The notes beneath the pieces are model-generated. The model was not told the DNA's origin. It ran no database searches and worked only from the letters and a program-made list of their open reading frames with translations. A stretch of 28,976 bases of DNA. Origin: a virus. The stretch lies in the IMG/VR virus record IMGVR_UViG_3300010413_000126, positions 1-28,976 of that record; one strand, given 5' to 3'. A program made the translations under genes and the position numbers. Shown one piece after another: positions 2,642 through 28,829 of the stretch. The stretch's first letter is position 1; every line of letters starts with the position of its first letter.

Positions 2642-2981
2642 TTTGTAGTATCTTTATTACTGTGATGAGTTTTAGTTCGTGTTCGGCGGCGCGAAGTGCG
2701 CTTTCTGCTTTTTCAAGTTTGGTTTGTGAAAAGTATGTTGAGTTACGATATCTTACAAGAAAACGACGCGCGACGAGTACCGCGGTTTTGACGGTAGCTT
2801 GCGCACCGGCACCGATGTTGCGATTTCTACTCGCGTGTCTTGTGCTCAACCGTGCCGAGCATTTAAGTAGGAGTGCAAGATCGTTGTCTAGTAATCCGTG
2901 TACCCCGTACATGGTACGGCACGCACTTACACGCTGCGCAAGAGTTGCAATTACTTTATGTATTTGACCGCGAGTCGCCAT
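2607..2981 (-). CDS. Small helical protein of unknown function (third gene of the leftward operon)
   Basis: This is a protein of 124 residues from the ATG at 2981 (MATRGQIHKVIATLAQ). A longer reading from 3074 is open but would overlap the previous gene by more than 100 bases; 2990 is another possible start. It is rich in Ala, Leu, Arg and Lys, helical throughout, with a likely coiled-coil segment at the C-terminus (LEKAESALRAAEHELKLI). No family is recognised. The start lies inside the end of the second leftward gene (26-base overlap). Confidence 0.5.
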   Translation of the reverse strand: MATRGQIHKVIATLAQRVSACRTMYGVHGLLDNDLALLLKCSARLSTRHASRNRNIGAGAQATVKTAVLVARRFLVRYRNSTYFSQTKLEKAESALRAAEHELKLITVIKILQNDKSEDEREMA

Positions 2982-3279
2982 GCAATGCATCTTGTAAAGC
3001 TGTGATTGCAGTACGGGCGGCGCGGCATACATCGGTAAATTCTTCAGTACTTTCGGCGAGCTTGCAGAGCTCATTGCTCGAAGTAGCTAGTGTGTTTAAT
3101 TGGTACATGAATCTCTCTGTACGATTTCGCCGCAACTCACAGCGTGCCGTTTGAAAAGCGCCATGCGCTTTTAACCATATAGACCGCGCGGCACGAATTT
3201 CGGAATGTGATCCGATATTATGTAGGTGACCGAGGTATTTTTCTACCTCTTCGGCGAGCGTGAAGAGTGGACTAACCAT
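2956..3279 (-). CDS. Small helical protein of unknown function (second gene of the leftward operon)
   Basis: This is a 107-residue, wholly helical-looking protein (MVSPLFTLAEEVEKYLGHL...) with amphipathic stretches such as FTDVCRAARTAITALQDALHG at the C-terminus. No motif or family is recognised. Its ATG overlaps the stop region of the first leftward gene by 8 bases (ATGGTTAG), a typical coupled arrangement, and no separate ribosome binding site is seen. Confidence 0.5.
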   Translation of the reverse strand: MVSPLFTLAEEVEKYLGHLHNIGSHSEIRAARSIWLKAHGAFQTARCELRRNRTERFMYQLNTLATSSNELCKLAESTEEFTDVCRAARTAITALQDALHGDSRSNT

Positions 3280-3616
3280 TTTTAGTGTGAAGTCGAATCG
3301 TTGGTTTCGCTTTTTCTCGCGCGATAGCCGGCGGTGGATACGCTAGCACTATATCCTTATTGAGTTGTGCAAGTGATTTTGTGACGTCGCATGCGATGCG
3401 TTCTTCGATGAGAAGCAGGTTGATTTGCGTAAGGACGGCACTCACATGACGCCATATATCAGCACTGCCCTTTTCTTGTGAGGCGGTGCGGATAAGTTTT
3501 TCGTATACGTCCACGAGCAACGGAGCGACCGCATCTTGCGTGCGGCGACTGGCAGATCGGGATGCTTTTGAAAGTGTGCTGTAGCAATTTCTAGCAATTT
3601 TTGAAAGGTGACTCAT
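3272..3616 (-). CDS. Small helical protein of unknown function (first gene of the leftward operon)
   Basis: This is a protein of 114 residues starting MSHLSKIARNCY at 3616. The frame is open upstream to 3691, but that longer start would run into the terminase coding region, and the ATG at 3616 sits six bases after an extended -10 element. The protein is basic at its N-terminus (SKASRSASRRTQ) and otherwise helical, with a Pro-rich segment (AYPPPAIAREKAKP) near its end. No family is recognised. It is the promoter-proximal gene of four overlapping leftward genes, the only minus-strand genes in the window, and diverges from the terminase gene with 45 bases between the two start codons. Confidence 0.5.
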   Translation of the reverse strand: MSHLSKIARNCYSTLSKASRSASRRTQDAVAPLLVDVYEKLIRTASQEKGSADIWRHVSAVLTQINLLLIEERIACDVTKSLAQLNKDIVLAYPPPAIAREKAKPTIRLHTKNG

Positions 3617-3622
3617 GCTGAC

Positions 3623-3631
3623 ATTGTAGCA
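3623..3631 (-). promoter_or_regulatory. Extended -10 promoter of the leftward operon, apparently leaderless
   Basis: Read on the minus strand, the element is TGC-TACAAT, an extended -10 box. It ends six bases before the ATG at 3616, so transcription would start at or next to the start codon. There is no ribosome binding site between them. The 8-mer AATTGCTA that contains part of this element occurs twice more within the first codons of the gene (plus-strand 3582-3589 and 3592-3599). Confidence 0.5.
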
Positions 3632-3646
3632 ATTGCGGATGAATAA

Positions 3647-3655
3647 TGCTACCTT
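3647..3655 (+). promoter_or_regulatory. Possible extended -10 element of the terminase gene
   Basis: TGC-TACCTT ends six bases before the terminase ATG at 3662. The hexamer matches the consensus poorly (three of six), but the TG extension, the spacing and the lack of a ribosome binding site mirror the divergent element on the other strand 20 bases away. Confidence 0.3.
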
Positions 3656-3661
3656 TCGAGT

Positions 3662-6289
3662 ATGGCACCGGCTGCAAAAAATGTCGATCATGCATCAGTT
3701 GTTGAATCTGCACGACGTGCACGAATTGTCTGCGCGCGCAGTGATATCAACACATTTCTTGAACTTGTTCTAAAAGACGAGCAACACGGGTGTGGTATTG
3801 AGCAGGGACAATGCCATGTCGAATGGCATGAGGCGTGCGACCAACATGATCGCGTGATTTTGTACTCACATATCGAATCAGGTAAAGCGGTGCCGCTAGA
3901 CACTCCCATACCGACACCGACCGGGTGGTCGACGATGGGTGAGCTTAAAGTTGGTGACACGGTATTTGGTGCCGATGGGTTACCCCACAAAGTGACGTGG
4001 TGCTCACCCGTACAATATGGGCGTGATGTTTTTGAGGTAGTCTTCGACGATGGTGTGACAGAACTTGCCGATGCGGATCATAACTGGCTTGCGTGGAGTA
4101 TTGACGATTTAGCGGTGCACGGTAGCGGTAAACCGCGGGTAGTAACCACTAAAGAAATGTTTGCGCGCGTGCATCGTGTCGGACCGGAAAAACGTAAGCA
4201 AGCGAAGTGGCACGTACCGGTAGCGGCACCGGTGGAATATCCGGAAGCTGCACTTGATGTGCATCCGTACGTACTTGGTGCTTGGCTAGGCGATGGTGAA
4301 ACAGCTACTGCAATGCTTACCGTACATGAAAAAGATCGCATGATTGCCGATCGTTGCATCGAGTTAGAGGGTGGGCGTTGCGGTAAGTGGCATCGGCACA
4401 AAGAAAAGCCACAAGTATTTAAAATCAATATCGGCGGTGACGACGATAAGCACACAAATCATGATCCTACGCGTCTTCGCGCACGTTTACGTAAGTTGGG
4501 CGTGCTTGGTAATAAGCACATACCGTTGGCGTATCTTACTGCAAGTGTCGCACAACGGCGTGAACTATTGGCTGGCTTGATCGACACTGACGGGCACGTG
4601 TCGGGTGATGGTAAGGGGCGGGTTGAATTTACGAGTACAATTCAAGCGTTGGCGGAAGGTGTGATAGAACTTGTACGGTCTCTCGGTTTTACAGCGACGT
4701 GCGCAAAAGGGACAGCGCAATTAAATGGTAGAGTTGTCGGCGATAAATGGCGCGTCGCGTGGACGCCACACGAAGCTGTGTGCAAACTACCACGTAAATT
4801 AACGCGGCAACGGTTGGATGGCGATCGTCGGTGGACGCGACACAGGGCGGTGATTGATGTCCATCAAGTTGAAAGTCGTCCGGTAAAATGTATCACAGTA
4901 GACTCGAAAGATCACACGTACTTGATGGGACACGCGTACACAGTTACGCATAATTCGCAGCAAATGGCAGTCGGGCGGATTCTTTTCGAGCTCGGTCGTA
5001 ATCCCGAGTTACGTGTAGCGATTGTGTCGAACACTTTTTTGCAAGCAAAGAAAGCCGTTGACGCGATAGCCAAATACATCGAAGAAGATGAGCACCTACA
5101 TACGGTATTTCCGCACCTTGTGCCGGGATCGCCGTGGATTGCCGGCGCGATTACCGTAAAGCGTAAGATTACAAAGCGCGATCCATCAGTGCGCGCGGTT
5201 GGTGTGCACGGTAGCATCCTCGGTGCCCGTCTCGACCTCGTGATTCTTGACGATATTCTTGACTATGAAAACACACAGTCACCGCGGTCGCGACAGGACG
5301 TGTGGGACTGGTATCATTCGACTATTGCGGGGCGCCTAACTGCCGGCGGTCGAGTCATTGCTATCGGCACGGCGTGGCATCCTGACGACATTTTACATCG
5401 CTTTGCGGCACAGCCGCGGTGGTATTGCATGCGCTACCCTGTCGAAGACGCGGACGGTAATCCCATGTGGGAAGAGCAGTGGCCTCGAGATCGTATCGCT
5501 TTGAAGCGGGAAGAGCTCGGACCACTTGAATTTGCGCGACAAATGCTCTGCCAAGCACGTGACGATGCGGAGGCGCGGTTTCAACGACCATGGATTGATC
5601 AATGTCTTGCGGAAGGTGCCGGCTGTCAGCCGGCGTCAAGCGCGGTTGATTTCTTCCGCAAACACCCGACACTTAGTCCGCCCGGGTGGTTCACCGCGGA
5701 ACATCCCGAGCTTGCGGATGCGCTCGACGTCTTGCGGCGCATGGATTTAAATGTCGGCGGTCAGTTCTTTACGGGTGTCGACCTCGGTGTGCAGAAACAT
5801 TCGAACGCGGATGAAACCGTACTGTTCACGATTTTTGTGCACGCTATGACCAACAAGCGCCAAGTTGTCGAGGTTTTAGCGGGAAAATGGACAGGACCGG
5901 AAATCGTTAGGAACATCATCAGTGTAAATAAGCGTTTCAACAGTATCGTACTAGTCGAGAACAATGCGGCGCAACATTTCATTCTGCAATTCGCACTCGA
6001 CGAGGGTGGTGTTATCCCTGTGCTTCCGTATACGACCGGACGCAACAAGACAAATCCGTTACTTGGTATCGAAGCGCTTGCGGCTGAATTTGCAAATGCC
6101 GGGTGGATGATCCCGAGTAAAGGCGGTAAACCACTTTGTGAAAACATGGGCAAGTGGATCCAAGAAATGCTCTTTTATGATCCCGGCGGGCACACCGGCG
6201 ATCGCCTGATGGCGTCGTGGTTTGCACGCGAACTTGCACGACGTGCGGCTACAAAAGCAACACGTGTAGGTACAAAGGTGCTAGGCTAG
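3662..6289 (+). CDS. terL: Terminase large subunit, intein-containing precursor
   Basis: This is the motor ATPase and nuclease that packages DNA into the procapsid. The 875-residue precursor consists of exteins of 75 and 444 residues around a 356-residue intein, so the spliced product has 519 residues. The P-loop is rebuilt by splicing (HIESGK joined to SQQMAVG). Walker B is LDLVILDD ending at residue 531, and an IAIGTAWHP coupling motif follows. The RNase H-like nuclease domain shows GVDLG with Asp707, IVLVENN with Glu766, and GDRLMA with Asp847, the expected three acidic positions. No small terminase gene is recognised beside it. The start at 3662 lacks a ribosome binding site. The portal gene follows after 8 bases. 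Terminase assignment is firm; the exact start is less so. Confidence 0.95.
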   Translation: MAPAAKNVDHASVVESARRARIVCARSDINTFLELVLKDEQHGCGIEQGQCHVEWHEACDQHDRVILYSHIESGKAVPLDTPIPTPTGWSTMGELKVGDTVFGADGLPHKVTWCSPVQYGRDVFEVVFDDGVTELADADHNWLAWSIDDLAVHGSGKPRVVTTKEMFARVHRVGPEKRKQAKWHVPVAAPVEYPEAALDVHPYVLGAWLGDGETATAMLTVHEKDRMIADRCIELEGGRCGKWHRHKEKPQVFKINIGGDDDKHTNHDPTRLRARLRKLGVLGNKHIPLAYLTASVAQRRELLAGLIDTDGHVSGDGKGRVEFTSTIQALAEGVIELVRSLGFTATCAKGTAQLNGRVVGDKWRVAWTPHEAVCKLPRKLTRQRLDGDRRWTRHRAVIDVHQVESRPVKCITVDSKDHTYLMGHAYTVTHNSQQMAVGRILFELGRNPELRVAIVSNTFLQAKKAVDAIAKYIEEDEHLHTVFPHLVPGSPWIAGAITVKRKITKRDPSVRAVGVHGSILGARLDLVILDDILDYENTQSPRSRQDVWDWYHSTIAGRLTAGGRVIAIGTAWHPDDILHRFAAQPRWYCMRYPVEDADGNPMWEEQWPRDRIALKREELGPLEFARQMLCQARDDAEARFQRPWIDQCLAEGAGCQPASSAVDFFRKHPTLSPPGWFTAEHPELADALDVLRRMDLNVGGQFFTGVDLGVQKHSNADETVLFTIFVHAMTNKRQVVEVLAGKWTGPEIVRNIISVNKRFNSIVLVENNAAQHFILQFALDEGGVIPVLPYTTGRNKTNPLLGIEALAAEFANAGWMIPSKGGKPLCENMGKWIQEMLFYDPGGHTGDRLMASWFARELARRAATKATRVGTKVLG
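3887..4954 (+). mobile_element. Class 3-type intein with LAGLIDADG homing endonuclease, inserted in the terL P-loop
   Basis: The intein has 356 residues, from Ala1 (AVPLDTPIPTPTGW) to Asn356 (TVTHN), followed by Ser+1. The splice boundaries are set by the HN/S junction and by the extein sequence that rejoins across it. The first residue is not a nucleophile. Instead Trp67 (block B, two after His65), Cys335 (block F, PVKCITVD) and Thr354 (block G, before His355-Asn356) form the W-C-T triplet that defines class 3 inteins. Two LAGLIDADG motifs are present with their acidic residues: LGAWLGDGE at 130-138 and LAGLIDTDG at 228-236. All key residues are intact, so both self-splicing and homing look possible. 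Bacteriophage terminase inteins at this kind of ATP-binding site are known. Confidence 0.93.
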
Positions 6290-11501: not shown

Positions 11502-11579
11502 CGAAATTTAGTGGTTTACTAAAAGAAATGTATGGAAGTTCGGTAGCGCAACTGTCACACTAAGAGAAAAGGGCACATT

Positions 11580-12938
11580 ATGCCACAAACAGAATTAGAC
11601 GCATTACTTGGAGCTTTACTCGGATTGGTCAAAAGTCCGGCGGCGAAGTTTCGGTTGCGCGACATTCTACCTTTCGAAATTTCATTAGTGGATCGAGCGG
11701 CAAATCGGCGGCGGTTCCTAACTGTCAAACAAGCAAACGGAGTAGAATCAATGAAGCTATCAAAAGTAGATCTTCCGAAAGATGTACGTGAAACTGTTTC
11801 AAAGGCGCTCGGCGATGCGCTGCAGCAATTGATCGACATCACAAAAGCGGTCGACGAGGGGCAAGCAATAGACAGCTCCGAATTACCGGGTGAGTTCATC
11901 GAAGCTTTTAGCGCGATGTACGATGCACTCGGTGGCGTCGTGGATGTCCACAAAGACCTACCATCTCGACTCGGGACCGAAACCAGCGATAAGCTGAAGG
12001 CAATTGCTGCCGTAATGGCGACCATAGCGGAAGCCGATAACCCGGAAGCTGTGACCGGCATGCTCGAACGGATGCTCAAGGTTTCAGCGGGTGACACCGA
12101 CACTGCCAAGACTCTCAAGGCACTCGGTGAACTTTCAATCGCGCTTGTCAGCGGCGACGAAGAGAAAGTCGTTTCGGAAGATGCGCTTATCAAGACACAG
12201 ACTGTCCTTAAGACACTCGGTGCATTGGTTGAAAGCCAGACTCCCGCGGAACCGCCCGCAACTGACCCGGCACCGGAACCGCCTGCGGTTGATCCGGCTG
12301 CCACTCCCGAGGGGACAACGAAGACTGATCCGGCACCGGTAGATTCCGCAACACCTCCGACCAGTGACCCGGTTGACCCTGCCCCTACCGCAAAAACGGA
12401 ACCGGCACCGGTAGATCCCGCTCCCGCAGACCCGGCGGCTTCCACGGATCCTGCTCCCGAAAGTACCGTGAAAACTGACCCTGCTCCCGCGGATCCGGCA
12501 GTTTCGCCCGAAGATGTGTCCACCGATACCGATCCCATAGTCACGAAAGCGGCTGACACTGTTTCGGTTATGGCAGCCGAAATAGCAAAGTCAGGTGCGA
12601 AGATGAGCGCGAAGCGTCTGAAGCATTTTCAGAGTGCTTTAAAAGTGCTCAGTGACCTACTCGAAGACTTGTCACCCGTCACAAAGTCCGATGTTACACC
12701 GGAACCGCCGGTTGTAACGCCTCCCGCGGAACCGCCGGTTGTGACCCCTCCTGTGGAAACACCGAGTGACACACCAACGGTAGCGGAAATCGCAAAAAGG
12801 CTACAAACACTCGACGAAAAATTTTCTAACCTGGCGAATAAACCGGTTGCACCGGTCTCGCGCAGGGTAGACCAAAACCCCGGTGCAGGTGATCCAACAC
12901 TCACGCAAGGGACCAAACCTAATAAGTGGGTTGCCTAG
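11580..12938 (+). CDS. Scaffold-like capsid assembly protein with Pro/Ala/Asp repeats
   Basis: This is a 452-residue protein. The N-terminus carries LPFEISLVDRAANRRRFL (about residues 30-47), a motif I associate with proteins of XkdF-type capsid modules. A helical region follows to about residue 220, then a low-complexity linker (about 220-315) of repeated PAPVDPAPADPA-like units, a second helical segment, and another Pro/Glu repeat (EPPVVTPPAEPPVVTPP) before a C-terminal helix. The location directly before the capsid gene, the helical content and the acidic repeats suggest a scaffold or internal core protein, perhaps a substrate of the upstream protease. The ATG has a weak AAAAGGG site 9 bases upstream. 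The long opposite-strand frame here is a shadow of the repeats. Confidence 0.7.
   Translation: MPQTELDALLGALLGLVKSPAAKFRLRDILPFEISLVDRAANRRRFLTVKQANGVESMKLSKVDLPKDVRETVSKALGDALQQLIDITKAVDEGQAIDSSELPGEFIEAFSAMYDALGGVVDVHKDLPSRLGTETSDKLKAIAAVMATIAEADNPEAVTGMLERMLKVSAGDTDTAKTLKALGELSIALVSGDEEKVVSEDALIKTQTVLKTLGALVESQTPAEPPATDPAPEPPAVDPAATPEGTTKTDPAPVDSATPPTSDPVDPAPTAKTEPAPVDPAPADPAASTDPAPESTVKTDPAPADPAVSPEDVSTDTDPIVTKAADTVSVMAAEIAKSGAKMSAKRLKHFQSALKVLSDLLEDLSPVTKSDVTPEPPVVTPPAEPPVVTPPVETPSDTPTVAEIAKRLQTLDEKFSNLANKPVAPVSRRVDQNPGAGDPTLTQGTKPNKWVA
12241..12540 (+). repeat. Degenerate in-gene repeat encoding PAPVD/PAPAD units
   Basis: Short tandem-like units encode Pro-Ala-Pro-Val-Asp and similar. 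The 15-mer CCGGCACCGGTAGAT occurs exactly at 12330-12344 and 12402-12416, and once more outside this gene at 14657-14671, where it again encodes PAPVD. Likely origin is slippage or recombination within a flexible linker. Confidence 0.7.
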
Positions 12939-12978: not shown

Positions 12979-13911
12979 ATGACCGATAATCGCACTCTGA
13001 TTCAAAAAGCGGATACCGCCCTTTCGACACTTGCGCCCGGGGGTATCTTAACCGCCGATCAGTACGACAAGTTCGTGCGACTGGCAATCGACAAGGCTGT
13101 CATGATGGGTAACATGACGCGCGTGGATATGCGTGCACCGAGTGAGCTTCGCGAGAAGATCCGTTTCGGTTCCCGAGCTCTCCGCAAGGGTCTCGAAGCA
13201 ACGGCGCTACCGGTGGCACAACGCAGTGCGCCGGACACGAGCAAGATCGAGCTCAATGCGCAGTTGGTGAAAGCCGAGGCGCGTGTCTCTTACGAGGCAT
13301 TGGAAGATTCGATCGAGCGCGGTAACTTCGAGTCCACCGTTCGCGACACGCTCGCCGAACGGATTTCCCTCGACCTCGAAGATCTCGCTTTCAACGGTGA
13401 TACGACCAGTTCTGACGACCTTTTGGTCATCATGGACGGTTTCATCAAGCAAGCGACCACGAACGGCGTGCCCGCGGGTAGCGCTTCGATCTCCCGAAAC
13501 CTTCTACGCGACATGATCAAAACCATGCCGTCCGAGTTTCGGCGCGATAAGCGATCCATGCAGTACCTAACGGCTGACGAAGTCGTGCTCGACTACCACG
13601 AGCTGATCGCTGCCCGTGAAACCGTAATGGGTGACACGCACATAGACGGACCGGCAACCCGCGGTTTCAACGGAATCCCTGTAACTGGCGTTCCCGTTTT
13701 CCCGGTTGATCTCGGTGCCGGAACTGACGAAAGCGTCGTGATGTTGCTCGATCCCGGAAACATGCTGTTTGGCGTGTGGAGAGAGCTTCGCATCGAAGCT
13801 GACCGCGACATCTCCGCGGGTGTGTGGTTGCTAGTCGTAACTGCGCGCGTTGTTTTCAAATTCGCGCATGAGCCTGCCGTTGTAAAAGCGACTGCAGTAA
13901 CTGCGGTCTAA
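12979..13911 (+). CDS. Major capsid protein, HK97 fold
   Basis: This 310-residue protein forms the icosahedral shell. Support comes from its size, its position after protease and scaffold-like genes, and its sequence style. There is an N-terminal helical arm (DKFVRLAIDKAVMMGNMTRVDM), an E-loop-like segment with SELREKIRFGSRALRKGLE, a long helix with ARVSYEALEDSIERGNFESTVRDTLAERISLDLEDLAFNGD, then SEFRRDKRSMQYLTADEVV, GIPVTGVPVFPV and a C-terminal beta region DPGNMLFGVWRELRIEADRDISAG. The ATG follows a TAGGAGC ribosome binding site. A short intergenic gap separates it from the next small protein. The C-terminus ends shortly after the beta region and carries no extra decoration domain. Confidence 0.9.
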   Translation: MTDNRTLIQKADTALSTLAPGGILTADQYDKFVRLAIDKAVMMGNMTRVDMRAPSELREKIRFGSRALRKGLEATALPVAQRSAPDTSKIELNAQLVKAEARVSYEALEDSIERGNFESTVRDTLAERISLDLEDLAFNGDTTSSDDLLVIMDGFIKQATTNGVPAGSASISRNLLRDMIKTMPSEFRRDKRSMQYLTADEVVLDYHELIAARETVMGDTHIDGPATRGFNGIPVTGVPVFPVDLGAGTDESVVMLLDPGNMLFGVWRELRIEADRDISAGVWLLVVTARVVFKFAHEPAVVKATAVTAV

Positions 13912-16079: not shown

Positions 16080-17954
16080 ATGGCTATTGCATTAAAATTA
16101 GATACCACTAATGGCGTACTCGCACAGCTAAGTAGCAGCGACGTTCTCGACATCAACGAGATACAGCAACGCACAGCCGGCGCGGATATGAAAATCGGCG
16201 CCAACCTAGGCAGCGGCGATGAACTGCAGCTAGGTAAGTCCGGCGAGCTCGTGCGCGTGATGGGTGATTTGACCGTTGACGGTTCCGAAATCGTTTCGAC
16301 GAACGAAACCATCACCGGCACTTTCACCGCAAACGGGAATGTCAATCTCGGTTCCGGCGATGACACGATCAACATCGGTCAGGGTGGCGGCGACACCGTC
16401 AACTTGAACGAAGACCTCGTGGTCGGTGCGGGTGCTGTCGGTATCGGTTCTTCGGTAACCGATTACCTTGCCGAGTTGTGGCTCATTGCCGTCAACGACG
16501 AAGGTCCGAACTTGGACGCCTATAACCTCGCGGCTTCGGGCACGAACTGCGGTGCGTATTCGATCGGAATCGATGCGAGTTTGCTCGGGAACGTAACGCG
16601 CACCGATTTGATGGGCGCGTTGGATCAATTGGATGCGGCAATCACGGCAGCGGGTGCGGATACCCTGCAGACCGCATACGAGGCGGGAAACACGATCGCT
16701 GTCACGGCAGCCGAAGGATCGGTTGCGTTGTCGAATAACACCGATTCCGACACCACGATCATATTGGACATTAACAAGTCACCGGCTTCAACCTCCACGG
16801 GCGGCAACGCTGCGCAAATCACGACCGGCGCGAATGCGACGGGATCGGCATTGGAGATTGATAACGGCGGAAGCGGCAATGCTCTCGACGTGCAAGACGG
16901 TAGCGCGAGCGTTTTCGTTGTCGACGGTAGTGGCAAGATCATCATGACTCCGACCAGTGGTCAAGATGTTGCGATTACGACCGCGGGTGCTGGCAAGCTC
17001 GACGTAAGCGCGGCGGCTGGCGTAGAAATAGATGCGGCGGGCGCTTCCTATTTCTCGGTTGCGGGTGCTGGCTTGACTCTGTCGACCACGACTTCCGGCG
17101 CGTTGACACTGTCTTCGGCTGGTCTTTTGGACGTGGACGCCACTTCCATCGAGATTGATTCTAGCGGTGCAATCGCGATCGAGAGTTCCGGCGGAGCAAT
17201 CAGCATCGGTGCTGACGCTGTCGCGCAGAACATCAACATCGGTACCGGCGCTGCAGCGCGTACGATCGTCCTCGGTAGCGCTTCTTCGACTGAAGCGGAA
17301 ATCAACGCAGCTCTCGTTGACATCAACGCGGGTGCAAACGGTTTCACGATTGACGGTGCAGGCGCTTCTTCGCTAGCCACTTCGTCCGGCAACCTAAGTC
17401 TTGATGCGGCTGCAGGCGAATTGAGCTTCGACGATGTCGGAAATAGCGGAATCACCCTTTCGCAATCCAGTGACCGGACTTTGACGGACACCGGAACGGG
17501 CGAAGTTTTCGAGGGTGTGACCTCCATCATCGGTGCGTTGAATGCATTGGCGGACAGCGTTTCCTACGGTTCGGTGCAAGAGGTTGCCATCGAGAACGGT
17601 GTAACCATAAGTGCGGGTGAGTGTGTGGCGCAATCCACGACCGCAAGTCGGGTTACACAATGGAATGGTAACGCGAACACGAATTCACGATTTGTCGGAA
17701 TCTGTATTACAGGTGGAACCGGCGATGCGGGTGGGACGGTGCTTTGCCGCTTTGCTCGACCCGGCAGCCTTGTTGCGGTGTCCGGCGCTTCTTTCACAGC
17801 CGGTGCGCGGTTGTTCGGACCTGATGGGACTGGTATTCCGGTTGCTGTCGGTTCGGCTCCTGCAGACGCGGGCGATGCTTTCAAGTGTCTCGGTTACGCA
17901 CACAGCTCGACTGAGATGTTCATCGATCCGGGACCAACGATTATACGCGGGTAA
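16080..17954 (+). CDS. Long repetitive beta fibre protein
   Basis: This is a 624-residue protein. Residues 1-70 form an N-terminal module (MAIALKL, IGANLGSGDELQLGKSG, MGDLTVDGSEIV) shared with the 18982 protein. Residues about 75-460 consist of Gly/Ser/Ala/Asp-rich short repeats such as SSGAIAIESSGGAISIGADA and NINIGTGAAARTIVLGSAS, the pattern expected for a trimeric beta-helical fibre shaft. The C-terminal 140 residues (FVGICITGGTGDAG, LCRFARPGSLVAV, AGARLFGPDGTG, MFIDPG) look like a small beta domain found at the ends of phage structural proteins. It has a CGGAGG ribosome binding site. Position soon after the capsid genes leaves open whether it is a tail or a head fibre. Confidence 0.8.
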   Translation: MAIALKLDTTNGVLAQLSSSDVLDINEIQQRTAGADMKIGANLGSGDELQLGKSGELVRVMGDLTVDGSEIVSTNETITGTFTANGNVNLGSGDDTINIGQGGGDTVNLNEDLVVGAGAVGIGSSVTDYLAELWLIAVNDEGPNLDAYNLAASGTNCGAYSIGIDASLLGNVTRTDLMGALDQLDAAITAAGADTLQTAYEAGNTIAVTAAEGSVALSNNTDSDTTIILDINKSPASTSTGGNAAQITTGANATGSALEIDNGGSGNALDVQDGSASVFVVDGSGKIIMTPTSGQDVAITTAGAGKLDVSAAAGVEIDAAGASYFSVAGAGLTLSTTTSGALTLSSAGLLDVDATSIEIDSSGAIAIESSGGAISIGADAVAQNINIGTGAAARTIVLGSASSTEAEINAALVDINAGANGFTIDGAGASSLATSSGNLSLDAAAGELSFDDVGNSGITLSQSSDRTLTDTGTGEVFEGVTSIIGALNALADSVSYGSVQEVAIENGVTISAGECVAQSTTASRVTQWNGNANTNSRFVGICITGGTGDAGGTVLCRFARPGSLVAVSGASFTAGARLFGPDGTGIPVAVGSAPADAGDAFKCLGYAHSSTEMFIDPGPTIIRG

Positions 17955-18007: not shown

Positions 18008-18982
18008 ATGGCTCCACGAAAAAAGACAGCTACGGGTGCGGCACCTAAGAAGCGCACCCGTAGTACTGCAAAACCAAAAACAACGACACGCAAAACAAAA
18101 TCCTCAAAAAGCACGACGGCAAAATCAATCAAACCAGTTGAAGAGATTGCCCCGATCGAGCAACAACAAACGCCAACGGCGCCAACAACAGAATTGCTAG
18201 ACACCCCGTCTTATGTGATGGTCGACGGGGATCCGGTTGCAATCCGCGGGATTGCGCCTCCCGGCGTGCTGGAACCGGTAGCGCAACCATCACCTGCAAC
18301 ACAACCAATGCTTGACGAGCAAGAGCGGGCTCGCCAAGCGCGGCTACAGGAAAAAATACGGGCACGCGAGCTTCGACGACAGAAAGCGCAACAGCCTGCA
18401 GCGATGTCAAATCCGCCTCCTGTGGCTCCCGTCCCTGTGGCACCTCCCGCCATCACCCCGTTACCAACTGTGACGGCACCGCCTCCAATAGCCCCACCGC
18501 CTGCCCCACAACTTGACGTGCAACAAGCGGCGGAAATGTCACCACAAACTTCGGTTGTGCCACAACCTGCGCCGCAGGTGCAAGCGCCGGAACAACCACA
18601 AACAATATCAATGCCAGCACTACCGAGTATTCCAACAAAGGTAGAAAATAAGCCAGATCTCAAGTTACAAATCACCGAGTTACCGCGGTTGCGCATCCAA
18701 GTTGCTGAACAAAAAATGCGCATGCTGTCAGGTCCGATTCGTGCCAAACTTAAAGCACAAGCTGAGATTTGGCTTAAGGACGCGATCAATCAATCATTAG
18801 CGCAAAACGAAGAGTACATGAAGGTACGACGCGAAGCTGAAGTCACCATAAACGGGTTACTTACCGAGCTAACACCACAATTACCCGAAGGGTACGCGGT
18901 AGTCGTAGTCGATGCACAGCATGGAGAGGCACTTTGTCGCTATGCGCCTGACCAAGTAGGGAAGAGATTTAAAATTGATTAA
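18008..18982 (+). CDS. Protein with histone H1-like basic tail and Pro/Gln-rich middle
   Basis: This is a 324-residue protein. Residues 1-45 are almost entirely Lys, Arg, Thr, Ser and Ala (MAPRKKTATGAAPKKRTRST...), like a histone H1 or HU tail, and would bind nucleic acid or acidic surfaces. Residues about 100-215 are rich in Pro, Gln, Val and Ala and likely disordered. Residues about 216-324 form a compact region with helices (EQKMRMLSGPIRAKLKAQAEIWLKDAINQSL) and a beta end (GYAVVVVDAQHGEALCRYAP). I do not recognise a family. It has a GGGAAGG ribosome binding site. The stop overlaps the next start as TAATG, so it is coupled to the 18982 fibre protein. Confidence 0.7.
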   Translation: MAPRKKTATGAAPKKRTRSTAKPKTTTRKTKSSKSTTAKSIKPVEEIAPIEQQQTPTAPTTELLDTPSYVMVDGDPVAIRGIAPPGVLEPVAQPSPATQPMLDEQERARQARLQEKIRARELRRQKAQQPAAMSNPPPVAPVPVAPPAITPLPTVTAPPPIAPPPAPQLDVQQAAEMSPQTSVVPQPAPQVQAPEQPQTISMPALPSIPTKVENKPDLKLQITELPRLRIQVAEQKMRMLSGPIRAKLKAQAEIWLKDAINQSLAQNEEYMKVRREAEVTINGLLTELTPQLPEGYAVVVVDAQHGEALCRYAPDQVGKRFKID

Positions 18983-19605
18983 TGGCGATTGCGCTCAAAT
19001 TGGGTGCCGATGGGTACCTCTATCAGATAGGAGATGACGAAGCTCTCCAAGCGGACGCGTTTGAGCGTAAGCAAGCATCTGGTAACCTGATCGTCGGATC
19101 AACTTTAGGGGCGGCGGAAGAACTACAGCTCGGTTCTTCCACTGCTCTTATCAATATTCTCGGCGATTCGAAGATTGACGGTTACGTAGAACTGCTCGAC
19201 CAAAGCGCGCCCGGGAATCCGAGTGACGGGGAGGGGCGTCTTTATAAAAAATCCGGCGATGCTGGGTTATTCTGGATTCCTGACTCTGCCGGCGGTGAGA
19301 TAGACCTCACCGACAAACTATCGTCCGACACTCACCGCACACTCGACACGCTAGCGCACGAGCTCGACGAAGACTACTACGAAGAGTATTCGTATAGCGG
19401 TAACGAGATCACAAATGTGACTGTGTGGACAAATTCTGGTAAAACCTTAAAGATACGTGAATCTGATTACACTTATTCGAGCGGTCGTGTAGCTACAGAA
19501 ACAGTAAAACAATATAATGGCGTTGGAACATTGGTAGAGACACTTACCCACACATACACTTATAGTGGTGGGAAAATTCAATCAGTTACCTGTGTGAGAA
19601 GTTAA
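18982..19605 (+). CDS. Fibre protein with the shared N-terminal module and YD-like C-terminus
   Basis: This is a 207-residue protein. Residues 1-75 (MAIALKL, IVGSTLGAAEELQLGSSTA, LGDSKIDGYVELL) parallel the N-terminus of the 624-residue fibre. Then comes a GEGRLYKKSGDAGLFWIPD segment, a motif common in fibre proteins. The C-terminal 70 residues contain Tyr-rich strands (EEYSYSGNEITNVTVW, YTYSSGRVATETVKQYNG, THTYTYSGGKIQSV) resembling YD-type repeats. The gene follows with TAATG overlap and ends flush with the next gene. It probably plugs into the same attachment site as the long fibre. Confidence 0.72.
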   Translation: MAIALKLGADGYLYQIGDDEALQADAFERKQASGNLIVGSTLGAAEELQLGSSTALINILGDSKIDGYVELLDQSAPGNPSDGEGRLYKKSGDAGLFWIPDSAGGEIDLTDKLSSDTHRTLDTLAHELDEDYYEEYSYSGNEITNVTVWTNSGKTLKIRESDYTYSSGRVATETVKQYNGVGTLVETLTHTYTYSGGKIQSVTCVRS

Positions 19606-22826: not shown

Positions 22827-24341
22827 ATGTTTTATTTGAAAAATCTATTCGTATGGCTCACCGGCATTGTTTTGCTGGGGTCACTAATTGCCATTTGCAC
22901 AAACTGTGCGGTCTATGACGCGGAAAAAATAGACGTCGGTAAAAGCACGTCTGAAGTCGTCTTAAGCACGATCGACTTTGCGGGGCGCACATGGGACGTG
23001 AAAAGCGGCTATTGTTCGACCGGCAACACTGCAGGTCCGGGACCGAACTATTGGTGTGGTGATGAAGAAGACATATGGGTAGATGCCTACGACCGCCTAC
23101 ACATGAAGATGAATTACAAGTCAGCACTCGGTCATTACAGTGCGGTATCGATTAAAACTACTGTAAGCGGCTGTGGTTTTTATCGCTACTCGGTAACCGA
23201 CGGACCTAACGGCTCACCTGACTCTTTTGATCCGAATGTGGTACTAGGTTTATTTACCTACGATGATGCCCCTGCGTACGATAACTATGAAATCGACATA
23301 GAAATTTCTGACTGGGGTGACTCGACGCCTGACGCAAATTTATGGTACGTCACTTGGCTAGATAGTAGTTCGACCAACGATAACACGCTTGAGACGTTCG
23401 GGACTGGGGTAGTTGAGCATTCGTTCACGTGGCTACCGTCTTCGATCACATTCAACTCGATAAAAGACAGCGTTTACATGTTTGACGGGGTACGCACAGG
23501 ATCGGATGTCTATCCGTGTCCGACCGAACCGATTTATGCTCGAATTAACTTTTGGCTTGTTGACGGTGATGACCCGGCTAGCTGGCAGGAGGTGGTAATC
23601 GACGATTTCGAATTTGTACCTCTCGTCATTCTCAACCAACCGACCGGACTTTCCGCGACCGCGACATCGAGCTCTAGTATCGATCTTGAATGGAATGACA
23701 CGTCAAGCGGTGAATATGGTTACCAGATAGAACGTAAAGAATCCGGCGGATCGTATAGTGTTGTCACGACTACCGATGCGGAAGCGACTTCGTATACTGA
23801 CGAAAACCTGGCAGCGAGTACGACTTACATTTATCGAATCGCGGCAGTAAATGACGGTGACGAATACAGTGATTATTCGAGTGAGGCGCAAGATACGACC
23901 GATAGCGACCCGGATGCGGGCGTCGACGGTGGGAGCGAGGATCCTAGTTTGTCTGCGATTACGTTTTCGTTCATCGGGTATTCTGGGTATGTAGCCGGCA
24001 CGATTTCAGATGTACCATCCGGCAGTTGGCATGCGCGATCGTGGGTGCAGACTAATAAGATGTATCGTGCAGGGAAAGACTTATCTGTCGATTCGAATAA
24101 CAATTCATTTTACGCCACTAATGGGTTGTGGGGTGATTGGAGTACGGTTACCTGTCTTTGGGTAAGCTTGCACGATGCCTCGACCGATGTGTATGGGACC
24201 GGCGACGGGGTCACTATGAATTTGAATCAGTGGCCAGAATACGCGAGTCCTGAATATATGTGGGCATGTTCTCTCGATACTTCGACAAGCGGTACGTGCG
24301 TACCGTACACCGGCGTTGAAGAGGTTTGCGGCTATAACTAA
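22827..24341 (+). CDS. Exported GH16-like glycoside hydrolase domain with FN3 domain
   Basis: This is a 504-residue protein from the ATG at 22827, chosen for its AGGAGGGGG site and because it exposes a signal sequence: residues 5-25 are hydrophobic after Lys5, ending IAICTNCAVYD. A lipoprotein cysteine is possible but no clean lipobox is seen. Residues about 48-263 resemble the GH16 beta-jelly-roll: DPNVVLGLFTYDDAPAYDN followed by the exact active-site pattern EIDIE (155-159). Residues about 268-357 are a fibronectin type III domain (PTGLSATATSSSSIDLEW, STTYIYRIAAVND). A DPDAGVDGG linker leads to an unknown 130-residue C-terminal domain. It would act outside the cytoplasm on a polysaccharide. 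A hairpin follows the gene. Confidence 0.72.
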   Translation: MFYLKNLFVWLTGIVLLGSLIAICTNCAVYDAEKIDVGKSTSEVVLSTIDFAGRTWDVKSGYCSTGNTAGPGPNYWCGDEEDIWVDAYDRLHMKMNYKSALGHYSAVSIKTTVSGCGFYRYSVTDGPNGSPDSFDPNVVLGLFTYDDAPAYDNYEIDIEISDWGDSTPDANLWYVTWLDSSSTNDNTLETFGTGVVEHSFTWLPSSITFNSIKDSVYMFDGVRTGSDVYPCPTEPIYARINFWLVDGDDPASWQEVVIDDFEFVPLVILNQPTGLSATATSSSSIDLEWNDTSSGEYGYQIERKESGGSYSVVTTTDAEATSYTDENLAASTTYIYRIAAVNDGDEYSDYSSEAQDTTDSDPDAGVDGGSEDPSLSAITFSFIGYSGYVAGTISDVPSGSWHARSWVQTNKMYRAGKDLSVDSNNNSFYATNGLWGDWSTVTCLWVSLHDASTDVYGTGDGVTMNLNQWPEYASPEYMWACSLDTSTSGTCVPYTGVEEVCGYN

Positions 24342-24365: not shown

Positions 24366-24392
24366 ACATGGTGCCTACTTAGGGCACCATGT
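24366..24392 (+). terminator. Hairpin terminator after the GH16-like gene
   Basis: ACATGGTGCC and GGCACCATGT form a perfect ten-base stem around a seven-base loop. AAAA precedes it and GCTTTAAT follows, so it may terminate weakly in both directions. It marks a transcript boundary before the patatin gene. Confidence 0.6.
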
Positions 24393-24423: not shown

Positions 24424-25302
24424 ATGTTGGCGATTGTTCTTTCAGGTGGCGGTGCAAATGGAGCATATGAGGTCGGCGCTTTGCAGTATATTCTTGCACA
24501 CTGTAACCCTGAAATTTATTGCGGTGTTTCGGTCGGTGCGATCAATGCGGCGTTTCTTGCTCAATACGGACTTGGTCGAGAAAAACAAGCGATCGCCGAG
24601 CTTAAAAACCTGTGGATGCATCTCAAAGACTCGTCAATTTACAAGCAATGGTGCTACGGACTTCTATGGTATCTTCCCGCCCTTTGGAAAGGCAGCGTGT
24701 ACAACACCAAACCTGTGCGCGATTTAATAAGTGGGAATCTGCAAATCGAATCTTTAAAGTGGTCTGGCAAAAAACTGCGCGTTGTCGGTGTTTCGCTAAA
24801 CACCGGCGAATGCAAAATGTGGACGGAGAAAGATAACGACATCATCGCGGGGGTGCAAGCTTCGAGTAGCTATCCAATCTTTTTCTCGCCTATTCGCGTT
24901 GGTGATTCAAGCTACAGCGACGGTGGTCTGCGAAGCATTACCCCATTACGGACCGCAATCGATGCGGGGGCGAAGCGCATCATTGTGGTGACGTGCACAC
25001 CGAAGACAATCACGATGTCGAAAAAGACATCGTTCAGTACGCTTGAACAGGTGACACGCACACTTGACATCATGTGCAGTGAAATCAATCGCGACGATTT
25101 GCGTGCGGCACGTTTGCATAACGAGCTCGCCGTTGAAAAAGCGAAGCATGGGGAGTGCCACTCAAAGCGTTACATCGACATCCATGTGGTGCAACCTGAG
25201 AAGGAATTGGGGGATAGTCTCAATTTTGAGCGAAAGAAGAACATCTCGTTGATGGATATCGGCTATGCTGATGCGGGGGCAGTGCTCGCCAATTTGTGGT
25301 AA
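24424..25302 (+). CDS. Patatin-like phospholipase
   Basis: This is a 292-residue acyl hydrolase with a Ser-Asp dyad. All patatin signatures are visible: the oxyanion-hole loop LSGGGANGAYEVGAL (residues 6-20), the nucleophile elbow GVSVGA with Ser36, and the catalytic DGG with Asp166 (SYSDGGLRSITPL). The region between is helical (LKNLWMHLKDSSIYKQW) and includes a hydrophobic stretch LLWYLPALW that could touch membranes. There is no signal peptide, so it acts inside the cell or is released by lysis. GTGAGGTG at about 24411-24418 is the ribosome binding site. The length is normal for a single-domain bacterial patatin. Substrate is not readable from sequence; phospholipids are usual. It stands between terminator-like hairpin and connector genes and looks intact. 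Confidence 0.9.
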   Translation: MLAIVLSGGGANGAYEVGALQYILAHCNPEIYCGVSVGAINAAFLAQYGLGREKQAIAELKNLWMHLKDSSIYKQWCYGLLWYLPALWKGSVYNTKPVRDLISGNLQIESLKWSGKKLRVVGVSLNTGECKMWTEKDNDIIAGVQASSSYPIFFSPIRVGDSSYSDGGLRSITPLRTAIDAGAKRIIVVTCTPKTITMSKKTSFSTLEQVTRTLDIMCSEINRDDLRAARLHNELAVEKAKHGECHSKRYIDIHVVQPEKELGDSLNFERKKNISLMDIGYADAGAVLANLW

Positions 25303-25313: not shown

Positions 25314-25589
25314 ATGAGCGCATTTACTGTCGTCAATACGGTTGTCGGTGACATCAATGGTGTGAATACTGACTTTACGACCCCTACCGATTACACGAGC
25401 GGGACGCTTCGTGCTGTTATAAACGGGATTACATATCCAGTAGACGACGATCAGTACGGAATCACAGAACTTACGAGTAATTCTTTTCGACTCAATTTAG
25501 CGCCGAAGACTGGTTTTAACGTGCAAGCGTTGTACAGTGAAATTGCAGTCGTAGGGTCACCGTTTGACCCGGATGGCGTGCTACCCTAA
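25314..25589 (+). CDS. Small beta-rich structural protein
   Basis: This is a 91-residue protein with a pattern of strands and turns (VVGDINGVNTDFTTPTDY, GTLRAVINGITYPV, NSFRLNLAPKTGFNVQALYS) often found in phage fibre-adaptor or baseplate-type modules, where it would bind a partner in a trimer. No ribosome binding site is visible; an extended -10 element lies just upstream. It precedes the head-tail connector gene by 15 bases. Confidence 0.68.
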   Translation: MSAFTVVNTVVGDINGVNTDFTTPTDYTSGTLRAVINGITYPVDDDQYGITELTSNSFRLNLAPKTGFNVQALYSEIAVVGSPFDPDGVLP

Positions 25590-25604: not shown

Positions 25605-26678
25605 ATGCCAACTATTCCGCGTGGACAAGAAAATACCCCTTCGAATATCAATTGGTTCACGTCTATCGGTAACGTGAAAACCGACATGTATCTGGTCGAA
25701 GTACGCATCGAGTACATCGCCACGAGTACGCAGGTGTTTCCGGCGACCGGGTGGGAAGACGTAACCGCGGCACCGGGACGTTTTGATGAAGGTTCCTACT
25801 ACGTTTACGACAACACAAATGGTTGCGGGTGGACACCTGCAATAGACGCAGAGCTCGGGAGCTATCGCGTTTATTGGCGGTGGAAATACCTTTCAACGTC
25901 CGCCTATCAGACCGGCGAAGAAGACATCACCGTCGAAATCGAGTCAACGGGGTCGCCAGGGACCGAGACCATGTACTGTTCGGTGGAAGACATGCGCGAC
26001 GAAGGGGTACCATCCACGGGGTCGGCGGCAGTATCGGACGACCGTTTGACGACTCTGATTCAACGCGCATCGCGACTAATTGATATGTATACGGGGAGGT
26101 GGTTCGAGTCTCGGTCAATGACTTTCACACTCGACGGGAAAAATGCGTTGTTATTACTACTCGAACAGCCAATCATTCGGATCGATTCAGTAAAAATCGA
26201 AGGGGTTACGATGGATTCGGCTGATTACATCGTCTACAATCGCCACATTACAGAAAATCTTACAGCTCCCGACGATCGTGAGAATCCGAAGATTGAAGTT
26301 AGCCAACCTCTTGAAAACGAGTTTCTTTTCAAGATGGGGTTGACGTGGTTCCCGCGGGGACAACTGAACGTCGAGGTGTCCGGTCTTTTTGGGTACACCG
26401 ATTACGATGGATCGGAAACGGGGGCAACTCCGCTCGCGATTACCGAAGCGTGCAAGCTCATGGTTATCCGCGAAATACCCGTGAAATATGGTGCCGATCC
26501 GACAGACGAAACAACCTCGTCTTGGCGCATCACGAGTCAGCGCACGCGTGATCAGTCGATTAGTTACGCAAATCCGATATCGCTCGGACGGCAAGGGGTG
26601 GGACCGTACACCGGCGATCCACGCATAGACAACATTCTTGTGCGCTACAGCCGACCACCTAAAATCAGGATCGCGTAA
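25605..26678 (+). CDS. Head-tail connector protein, gp6-like, with N-terminal beta domain
   Basis: This is a 357-residue protein. Residues 1-120 are a beta-rich domain (MYLVEVRIEYIATSTQVFP, GSYRVYWRWKYLS) not usual for this family. From about residue 124, the connector pattern begins: YCSVEDMRDEGVPS, DDRLTTLIQRASRLIDMYTGRWFE, PIIRIDSVKIEGVTMDSADYIVYN, WFPRGQLNVEVSGLFGYTD, and an ITEACKLMVIREI helix. It would form the ring below the portal that seals DNA in the head. GTGAGGT precedes the ATG. Confidence 0.78.
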   Translation: MPTIPRGQENTPSNINWFTSIGNVKTDMYLVEVRIEYIATSTQVFPATGWEDVTAAPGRFDEGSYYVYDNTNGCGWTPAIDAELGSYRVYWRWKYLSTSAYQTGEEDITVEIESTGSPGTETMYCSVEDMRDEGVPSTGSAAVSDDRLTTLIQRASRLIDMYTGRWFESRSMTFTLDGKNALLLLLEQPIIRIDSVKIEGVTMDSADYIVYNRHITENLTAPDDRENPKIEVSQPLENEFLFKMGLTWFPRGQLNVEVSGLFGYTDYDGSETGATPLAITEACKLMVIREIPVKYGADPTDETTSSWRITSQRTRDQSISYANPISLGRQGVGPYTGDPRIDNILVRYSRPPKIRIA

Positions 26679-26679
26679 C

Positions 26680-27192
26680 ATGGCACGGGGCAAACTGATA
26701 TTTCCTTTCACAATAGACCTTGAACAGGTTGACACTGAACTGACAGCGGCGGTCACGGATGGCGGGTACGACGATGTGTTTCGAGAACCGATAGTAGTTC
26801 CACCCGCAAGCGGTTCGGCGCGCGGTACGATAAGTCGGGAAGAGGTTACGTACAATTACAAATGCCAGATCGAACCGGCTGTGTTCGAAGCGATTGAAAT
26901 GATGGTGACGGGTAAGTCGCCGAATTCTGAAATCATGGTGGTGATGCACTACCGAGATCTCGAGCTTGCGGGGCGGGTGGATGCTACCACTGGGCGCCCG
27001 TTGATTCGAGATGGTGACCGGATGAGTGCAATTCGCCACGCAAAGACGGGTGCACTCATCGAAACTATCCCTAATCCTCCCGGATTGTACGTTACCCAAA
27101 TTCGTTCAGGTGGTTTCGGATTAAACAGCCTGCAGCGTAATTTACTCTTCGTCGTATTCGAAGAGCGGGAGCTTTCCACCCGTACCGCGTAA
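26680..27192 (+). CDS. Head closure / neck-type protein
   Basis: This is a 170-residue protein starting at 26680, one base after the previous stop; an ATG at 26638 is rejected because it lies inside the connector gene. It is beta-rich (REEVTYNYKCQIEPAVFEAIEMM, SEIMVVMHYRDLELAGRVD). The order connector, this gene, gp10/gpG-like gene matches the position of head-closure (stopper) proteins in siphophages. I do not see a decisive family motif. Confidence 0.65.
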   Translation: MARGKLIFPFTIDLEQVDTELTAAVTDGGYDDVFREPIVVPPASGSARGTISREEVTYNYKCQIEPAVFEAIEMMVTGKSPNSEIMVVMHYRDLELAGRVDATTGRPLIRDGDRMSAIRHAKTGALIETIPNPPGLYVTQIRSGGFGLNSLQRNLLFVVFEERELSTRTA

Positions 27193-27194
27193 TA

Positions 27195-27824
27195 ATGATC
27201 GAAGTTAAGCAATATGGTGATTGGATACGGGCACGCCGATCAATTAGTGCGGCGGCAGCGTTACGCATGAATCGTGCATGGCGCAAAGCGATGCTGAAAG
27301 AAGCGCACATTTGGCGCAAAGCACTTGTAACCGGTATGACGCGGCAAATGCCGGGAGGTAAGAAATACACGAAGCTTAAACAGCTCACGTGGGCGAAGCG
27401 GCGCGCGGAAGGTTTTTCGGGTAGAAAAGCGTTATTGCGCACCGGCGCTTTTCGACGAAACATCAATGTGACTGAACGTGGAAAAACGATTTTTGTTGGC
27501 GTACTTCGGGGAGTGCGCACGCGGGACGGCAAAGAGATGGTCAATATCTTCCGGGTGCACGAAGAAGGGCGCATCATTGTCATGCGAGTGACGCCCGCGA
27601 TGCGTAACTACTTCTACGCGATGATACGGCGATCGGGGATACAACTTCACGGGAAAAAGGGCACCGGTGGGTTTAAGCGTGGAATTCTCATCATTAAGAT
27701 TCCGGCACGCCCCACATTTGCCCCTGTGTACGAGCATATGCTAAGAAACAAAGGATCGATGCGACGACGAATTATGCGAGCATTTAGTATTGCGTCAAAG
27801 GGCGAATTCGGTCTTGTTTGGTGA
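27195..27824 (+). CDS. Tail completion / virion morphogenesis protein, HK97 gp10 or Mu gpG-like
   Basis: This is a 209-residue, strongly basic protein. The sequence LTWAKRRAEGFSGRKALLRTGAFRRNINV, followed by FVGVLRG, VHEEGRIIVMRV and, near the end, ARPTFAPVYEHM, follows the gp10/gpG-type pattern (loss of helix, LxxTGxLRxS-like motif, RPFL/RPTF near the C-terminus). It would act where tail joins head. The start is two bases after the previous stop and lacks a clear ribosome binding site, so coupling is likely. Confidence 0.75.
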   Translation: MIEVKQYGDWIRARRSISAAAALRMNRAWRKAMLKEAHIWRKALVTGMTRQMPGGKKYTKLKQLTWAKRRAEGFSGRKALLRTGAFRRNINVTERGKTIFVGVLRGVRTRDGKEMVNIFRVHEEGRIIVMRVTPAMRNYFYAMIRRSGIQLHGKKGTGGFKRGILIIKIPARPTFAPVYEHMLRNKGSMRRRIMRAFSIASKGEFGLVW

Positions 27825-27827
27825 TCA

Positions 27828-27836
27828 TGGTATACT
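27828..27836 (+). promoter_or_regulatory. Extended -10 promoter before the IPT/TIG gene
   Basis: TGG-TATACT is a near-consensus extended -10 box. It ends six bases before the ATG at 27843 and no ribosome binding site lies between, so transcription and translation would start at about the same base. Confidence 0.5.
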
Positions 27837-27842
27837 AGACAC

Positions 27843-28829
27843 ATGGCGGTTCCCACAATTACAGCTATATCCCCTAACACGGTGCACACCGGGGGACTTA
27901 CCTTAGTCGAGATCACAGGAACAAACTTCAAGGTCCCTACTGTCCCACCTCCCGCGGATGGTCCGGCGAGCTCACCGATCCCTACCGTAGCCGTTCTATG
28001 CAACACAGAAGAGGCGTCCGAAGTTTCGGTGATTAGCGCAACACGGTTATTTGTGCTTGTTCCGAAATCGCCTATCACGCCAACCAAAGCAAATTCGTAC
28101 GGTGAAGGCTCGGTCGACATCACGATCAAGAATCTCGACGATGATGGTGATCCTATTCCGGGGGAAGAGGTCACCGAAACTGATGGGTTGGCTTATTCCC
28201 GCGTACAGCTCGCGACCGAAAGCGACTTTCAACGTTTGATTCGCGAGATAGTGCTTGAGTTGCGCTTACAGACTATCCCGAATGTGGCGATATCCAATCA
28301 CACCGATTTCGACGACGACACCACCGATTCAGCCGACATCACAACGTTAGCCGAGCTTCCCGGGATTGCGCTTCTCGGCCCGACATTGCGAGAGAATCGT
28401 TTTTACTCACAAAACGCGCCGATAGCAGTTGCGGCTTCAAATCCGGGGGAGTATCTAAAGCGGCGAGTCGGCTACACTGTTGATCTTGAGTTCAGGATTA
28501 TCGGTGTCTCTAACATCATGGTGGAACTAATAAATTTAATGGCGGTGGTAAACGGCTACTTCGAAAAAAATAAGTACATCGAGCTCACGCGCGATCCTAA
28601 TGATTCATCGCTCGGGAAGGCGCGCTATGAAATCGATTTTACAGAAGACGGAGATCTTGATACAATTAGTACACCTAACGACTCGAACATACATGCGTTT
28701 AGTGGTAGGTTTGTTATCAGAGGATTCGACATGCAAGATCTGACCGGTTTTGCGAATGACCAAACAGTAGGGCAGACGGCGACAACCGATGATGAAGGTG
28801 TGCGCCTTACTGCTTATCAAAAGGGTTAA
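27843..28829 (+). CDS. Structural protein with IPT/TIG domain and possible tail-terminator domain
   Basis: This is a 328-residue protein. Residues 1-115 form an IPT/TIG immunoglobulin-like domain (TITAISPNTVHTGGLTLVEITGTNF, then SVDITIKNLDDDG). Residues about 122-310 form a mixed alpha/beta domain (FQRLIREIVLELRLQTIPNVAI, KRRVGYTVDLEFRIIGVSNIMVELINLMAVVNGYF, YEIDFTEDGD). Its position after the tail completion gene, and its size, would suit a tail terminator carrying an added Ig-like domain. That role is inferred from gene order. Such Ig-like additions often bind weakly to host surface glycans. Confidence 0.65.
   Translation: MAVPTITAISPNTVHTGGLTLVEITGTNFKVPTVPPPADGPASSPIPTVAVLCNTEEASEVSVISATRLFVLVPKSPITPTKANSYGEGSVDITIKNLDDDGDPIPGEEVTETDGLAYSRVQLATESDFQRLIREIVLELRLQTIPNVAISNHTDFDDDTTDSADITTLAELPGIALLGPTLRENRFYSQNAPIAVAASNPGEYLKRRVGYTVDLEFRIIGVSNIMVELINLMAVVNGYFEKNKYIELTRDPNDSSLGKARYEIDFTEDGDLDTISTPNDSNIHAFSGRFVIRGFDMQDLTGFANDQTVGQTATTDDEGVRLTAYQKG

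Follow-up and report, generated by a model that had tools for sequence, protein, structure and literature searches.

A predicted patatin-like phospholipase of a phage-specific clade in the late gene block of an uncultured tailed phage

We describe an intact patatin-like phospholipase gene, phage-borne with near certainty, at 24424-25302 (+) of an IMG/VR virus record of 28,976 bases (hereafter the window, i.e., the whole stretch of DNA that was analyzed), which is probably a genome fragment of an uncultured tailed phage. Judged from its sequence, the gene would encode a phage-adapted phospholipase A or acyl hydrolase. What appears to be new is the phage-specific clade of patatins to which it belongs, together with the recurrent place of such genes in the late block; phage patatins as such have already been published. 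Regarding function, we tentatively propose, with somewhat less than even confidence, that a late-made, cytosolic patatin would weaken the host membrane and aid release.

Sequence sets and phylogeny

Relatives of the window were gathered via its major capsid protein (Table 1), and the whole contigs were then searched for patatin genes, while a peptide-pattern search for relatives of the head-tail adaptor found none. The phylogeny is a quick maximum-likelihood tree, for which the bacterial set came from pattern sampling and from two phyla (approximately 150 genomes each) searched by profile. Short records named 'Listeria phage' and fecal 'Bacteriophage sp.' were left out, and a record deposited as 'Acinetobacter phage MD-2021a' (L162, CAKLQH020000002.1) was dropped, as secA, fadJ, and other chromosomal genes were found around its patatin, a gene content that suggests bacterial DNA under a wrong phage label.

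Identity and fold of the patatin

The frame is open and intact over 292 codons (292 aa) and is preceded by a ribosome-binding-like GAGGTG. Its product matches PF01734 (Patatin) along the entire profile (positions 1-191 of 191; E = 5.9e-25; 89 bits with a cut-off of 27.7), a score by which chance motifs are far excluded, and carries the glycine-rich oxyanion loop GGGANG (residues 8-13), the GxSxG serine motif GVSVG (residues 34-38, with Ser36), and the DG[GA] aspartate motif DGG (residues 166-168, with Asp166); whole-domain profile, motifs, and fold (see below) all agree with membership of this family. The first-pass annotation, which had claimed an intact patatin with all three motifs and a complete Ser36-Asp166 dyad, was thus confirmed. 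It had also noted the lack of a signal peptide, and here again we agree, as no membrane segment was found in the protein by a hydropathy scan and the fold begins with its first strand right at the N-terminus, so that there is no space for a signal peptide and none is expected. No PHROG match was obtained for the protein. Ser36, Asp166, Gly34, Gly38, and Gly167 are invariant in 40/40 aligned phage patatins, and a decayed or inactive copy was ruled out by the intact frame together with this conserved dyad.

An AlphaFold2 model based on 40 phage relatives reached a mean pLDDT of 92.8 and a pTM of 0.91 (with an input of 3 sequences, the pLDDT was 40). The nearest solved fold was the catalytic domain of PlpD from Pseudomonas (PDB 5fya; Z 29.2, rmsd 2.4 over 245 residues, 22% identity), followed by CapE (Z 27.4), CapV (Z 27.0), and the plant patatin, patatin-17 (Z 27.0). 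On the strength of this model, we are confident that the 292-aa protein would adopt the patatin fold; function does not follow from a common fold. PlpD is a secreted protein in which the patatin is fused to a barrel, whereas the phage protein consists of the patatin domain alone.

The likeness to CapV and CapE (9jeh, 9iom), which are also stand-alone patatins of the cytosol, comparable in size and fold, and are thought to degrade the cell's own membrane, as well as weak matches to CBASS lipase models, could suggest a phage-carried anti-phage defense effector of the CBASS kind or a decoy of such an effector. We consider this very improbable, since the protein scored 30.7 bits with the CBASS lipase model NF041079, far under its cut-off of 200 bits, and no nucleotidyl-transferase (CD-NTase) was seen beside the patatin among the ORFs of the window, where the neighbors are virion-type or unassigned. 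On both counts, membership in the CBASS patatin effectors (CapV/CapE) was rejected, and the intact dyad speaks against a dead decoy.

Gene neighborhood in the window

The genes around the patatin (Table 1) lie on the same strand and are tightly packed within the late virion block, an arrangement that would fit late expression of the patatin. They had previously been annotated as fiber genes on one side and connector genes on the other. The downstream part of this description stands, with a head-tail adaptor (PHROG 442) and further connector genes, while the upstream gene is FN3/GH16-like and no clear fiber. The EIDIE of its product resembles the motif of GH16 glucanases, although a GH16 assignment was unsupported by Pfam or by PDB sequence search. 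The gene is kept in two relatives of the window (G003 and G004, approximately 81% identity), in both of which the N-terminus is lipoprotein-like; we describe the product as a predicted exported FN3/GH16-like protein, not a proven fiber. The hairpin between this gene and the patatin may act as a weak terminator that lowers read-through; G003 has a hairpin at the equivalent position with a different stem sequence. A hydropathy scan found no membrane segment in the 91-aa protein encoded downstream of the patatin.

Table 1 Features of the window around the patatin gene and genes found at the corresponding place in relatives
Feature	Position	Strand	Evidence or remarks
Major capsid protein	12979..13911	+	Hits in 216 phage records, of which several carry the annotation major capsid protein
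Upstream gene	22827..24341	+	Start set by AGGAGG site; FN3 domain (fn3 E=2.2e-9), hydrophobic N-terminus, EIDIE motif
Hairpin like an intrinsic terminator, 11-bp stem	24366..24392	+	-19.3 kcal/mol, z -4.3; weak T run
Patatin-like phospholipase	24424..25302	+	PF01734, motifs, AlphaFold2 model, PlpD Z 29.2
Predicted catalytic dyad	Ser36 codon 24529-24531; Asp166 codon 24919-24921	+	Motifs
91-aa protein	25314..25589	+	Directly downstream of patatin; adjoins adaptor in relatives with and without patatin
Head-tail adaptor	25605..26678	+	PHROG 442 E=5.8e-18
More connector/tail genes	26638..28829	+	PHROG 14218; neck/tail completion PHROG 222; TIG-domain protein
Poly-gamma-glutamate hydrolase-type genes	L033 ~11547-12400; L034:12247-13137		In G007 and G008, in the region of the window's FN3/GH16-like gene and patatin

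Presence, deletion, and replacement in relatives

Three of the contigs gathered via the capsid protein hold a patatin at the same place. In G004 (140.7 kb) the patatin is 64% identical and the gene order is the same from the capsid gene to the TIG-domain gene; in G006 (37.6 kb) it is 36% identical and has a virion-type gene on one side and, on the other, a 100-aa gene followed by the adaptor; and in G001 the C-terminal third (56% identity) is found at the contig end, followed by the genes for the 91-aa protein, the adaptor, and the neck. Relatives that share the phage context, for which the first-pass annotation had suggested a search, are therefore present, and the outcome that it had named as damaging (relatives on bacterial chromosomes only, together with a chimeric contig) did not occur, as phage relatives were found with the same order in independent contigs. 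Between the patatins of the window and G004, 27% of the nonsynonymous vs. 83% of the synonymous sites differ, the latter being saturated.

Other relatives have lost or exchanged the gene. In G003 the gene order is the same and the patatin is cut to its first 13 codons (MLAVVLSGGGASG), fused to a sequence that resembles the 3' end, which we read as an internal deletion that left the flanking genes in place. The whole fiber region of G013 holds unrelated genes and the patatin is absent, and a poly-gamma-glutamate hydrolase (PF05908, E = 8.8e-15) lies upstream of the 91-aa-type and adaptor genes of G008, with a similar sequence upstream of the same two genes in G007. This pattern of presence, deletion, and replacement points to an old, dispensable gene in a variable region next to the connector genes. 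The region tends to hold host-barrier enzymes, judging from the hydrolase type in G007 and G008 and the FN3/GH16-like protein beside the patatin.

The same pattern bears on the origin of the gene. Patatins are common in bacterial genomes (found at E ≤ 1e-30 in 56/146 genomes of one sampled phylum), and a misassembled bacterial gene, or chance motifs, might accordingly be suspected in a metagenomic contig. This explanation has a practically negligible probability, given the same place of the gene in independent contigs (G004, G001, G006), the deletion remnant at that place in G003, the phage-specific clade described below, and a GC content of 49.1%, close to that of the genes on its two sides (48.9% and 52.1%).

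A dispensable gene by the fiber region, with its patchy presence, its deletion in G003, and the different content of G013, would also fit a role in superinfection exclusion or competition, in which altered lipids block other phages or the enzyme freed at lysis harms other cells. We regard such a role as distinctly unlikely, since a cytosolic enzyme encoded in the late block is a poor match for exclusion and no immunity-type partner was seen.

The phage patatin clade

An alignment scan of IMG/VR recovered 47 patatin loci, many of which lie on long contigs (100-480 kb). Of 18 patatin-locus records tested for the window's capsid gene, one (G004 itself) contained it, and most of the other loci thus belong to different phages. 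In the tree, 41 rows (39 phage and 2 MAG copies) formed one clade (SH-aLRT 97) separate from 40 chromosomal patatins, with one phage row (L085) and the patatin of Rhodothermus phage RM378 placed outside. By its sequence, the patatin of the window falls within this clade and is distinct from the chromosomal patatins sampled. The RM378 gene (Rm378p022) encodes a phage patatin too, aligned with 90% of the query at 27% identity; it sits near a DNA polymerase gene, not in a connector block, and on a long, uncertain branch.

A pattern-based direct search of the species-level genome collection gave a best match of 28%, which is itself a phage-borne copy (L088) in a Phycisphaerae assembly. This copy is clearly on phage-type DNA, because its upstream gene is homologous to the gene upstream of the patatin in eight viral loci. 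The other MAG copy in the clade is a truncated patatin (L150, 50% to L058) from bacterial genome G143; on contig C58, its neighbor is an apparently bacterial gene, and the copy is perhaps a prophage remnant. Two phages carry two different clade patatins in tandem (L043:4968-6725 and L078:4992-6730).

The genes near related patatins encode head-tail adaptor Ad2, T4-like Gp23 capsid, tail fiber, fiber Gp80, homing endonucleases, and sugar-modification proteins, and endolysin, holin, or spanin families were not among the top 25 families in the 121 proteins encoded near them. Profile comparison found no convincing homology between the neighbors in other phage lineages and the genes of the window (single-protein profile matches connect a few of them), so that these neighborhoods have virion-type content in common, not the same genes. 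For several of the related patatins, the start is only a few bases away from the stop codon of the preceding gene, which fits expression with the late block.

A patatin among virion genes both in the window and in unrelated phages (adaptor Ad2, T4-like Gp23, tail fiber), with conserved late genes as its immediate neighbors, raises the main rival to the role proposed here, namely that virions carry the enzyme, either packaged or attached to the tail, for use on membrane lipids at genome entry. We hold this to be unlikely, as no virion-domain fusion, signal, or anchoring segment was seen in the patatin, gene order alone does not show packaging, and G003 lost the patatin and kept the flanking genes.

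Proposed role in late membrane attack

In the role that we tentatively prefer, the patatin would be made late together with the structural genes, would remain in the host cytoplasm, and would cleave inner-membrane phospholipids from the inside near the end of the cycle. The weakened membrane would then lead to faster or completed host breakdown and progeny release, beside a separate lysis set, with the patatin as an accessory enzyme for exit, encoded in a variable slot by fiber and envelope-enzyme genes. We prefer this exit model because the gene lies late, its product has no export signal, and relatives carry host-barrier enzymes at or beside the slot. By analogy, the lipase nature of the nearest folds (CapV, CapE, and PlpD) may also count toward it; CapV and CapE attack the membrane of the host cell itself.

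Several observations weigh against an exit role. In contrast to phage WO, the top 25 families near related patatins include no endolysin, holin, or spanin. In G004, the tail genes are followed by a separate cluster of small membrane proteins that, from its sequence, looks like a lysis set, and the patatin is therefore not required as the sole lysis enzyme and would be accessory rather than main (no cell-wall hydrolase was found in G004 among the best 25 of 58 Pfam families). In addition, the patatin is dispensable, as it is deleted in G003 and absent in G013, and the hairpin just upstream may reduce its read-through.

Acyl-chain hydrolysis is the textbook activity of patatins in general, and the enzyme could instead free fatty acids or alter membrane composition as an auxiliary metabolic gene, the class to which megaphage and lake-virus patatins have been assigned (PMC9723777, PMC9469726). 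For the gene of the window, this is quite unlikely, since a late-block site by connector genes is unusual for metabolic genes and no lipid-metabolism gene was recognized beside the patatin in the lineage examined.

Relation to known phage patatins

In phage WO of Wolbachia, a patatin lies in a gene group upstream of the tail module that was proposed to be a lytic cassette (PMC9203015). As in the window, a patatin-like phospholipase of a tailed phage adjoins a structural module, and its proposed role in phage WO is exit or entry through membranes. The partners of the WO patatin are a holin-like protein and an ankyrin protein, whereas that of the window stands between FN3/GH16-like and connector genes with no recognized lysis partner. 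Protein searches of a phage collection, which may lack WO genomes with the patatin, gave no WO record among the matches listed. A WO-type lytic cassette was thus rejected here, the neighbors being the FN3/GH16-like protein and the 91-aa protein without membrane segment. The marine megaphage Mar_Mega_1 likewise has a patatin-like phospholipase in its (large) genome, reported as a single auxiliary metabolic gene (PMC9723777); the report gives no conserved position or clade, and the comparison is by description only. A lake virome study also lists patatins, mostly from algal viruses (PMC9469726). The first-pass statement that patatins are not a standard phage structural gene has to be qualified accordingly, as phage patatins had already been published (PMC9723777, PMC9203015). 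In the part of the literature that was covered, we found no paper describing a phage patatin clade or a conserved slot.

Other features of the window

The large terminase subunit gene (3662-6289) contains an intein (insert ~3884-4921) at the Walker A motif (GK/A...HN/S, slashes marking the insert boundaries), with Ala as its first residue; its splicing domain is of the DnaB type (PDB 6rix, E = 4.6e-19), and its endonuclease part is of the LAGLIDADG kind and similar to PI-SceI. The G004 terminase is without this insert and shows a gap of 1.2 kb elsewhere in the gene. Four small minus-strand ORFs (2312-3691) lie between a ParB-like gene and the terminase, opposite to the other genes. The product of 1025-1672 has an N-terminal membrane segment and a HELCH zinc-protease-like motif, and the cluster of small membrane proteins in G004 includes a lipoprotein-like HELVH protein (L142:4244-4879). 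Two virion-type proteins (16080-17954 and 18982-19605) have a similar N-terminal module of approximately 70 residues, seen as cross-matches in relatives.

Conclusions

A widespread, phage-specific patatin lineage in the late block of several unrelated tailed-phage lineages could be a general, undescribed phage tool, used either to break the membrane from the inside at exit or, particle-borne, at entry; we consider this quite possible, at a little under an even chance. In Gram-negative hosts, holins, endolysins, and spanins open the membrane, the wall, and the outer membrane without lipid hydrolysis, and a recurrent late-block phospholipase would mean that lipid hydrolysis is an added phage route of membrane attack. 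As bacteria deploy enzymes of this class against phages (CBASS), phage and host may wield one weapon in opposite directions. The clade of phage patatins is well delimited for this purpose and a catalytic mutant offers an obvious control, which makes the proposal directly testable.
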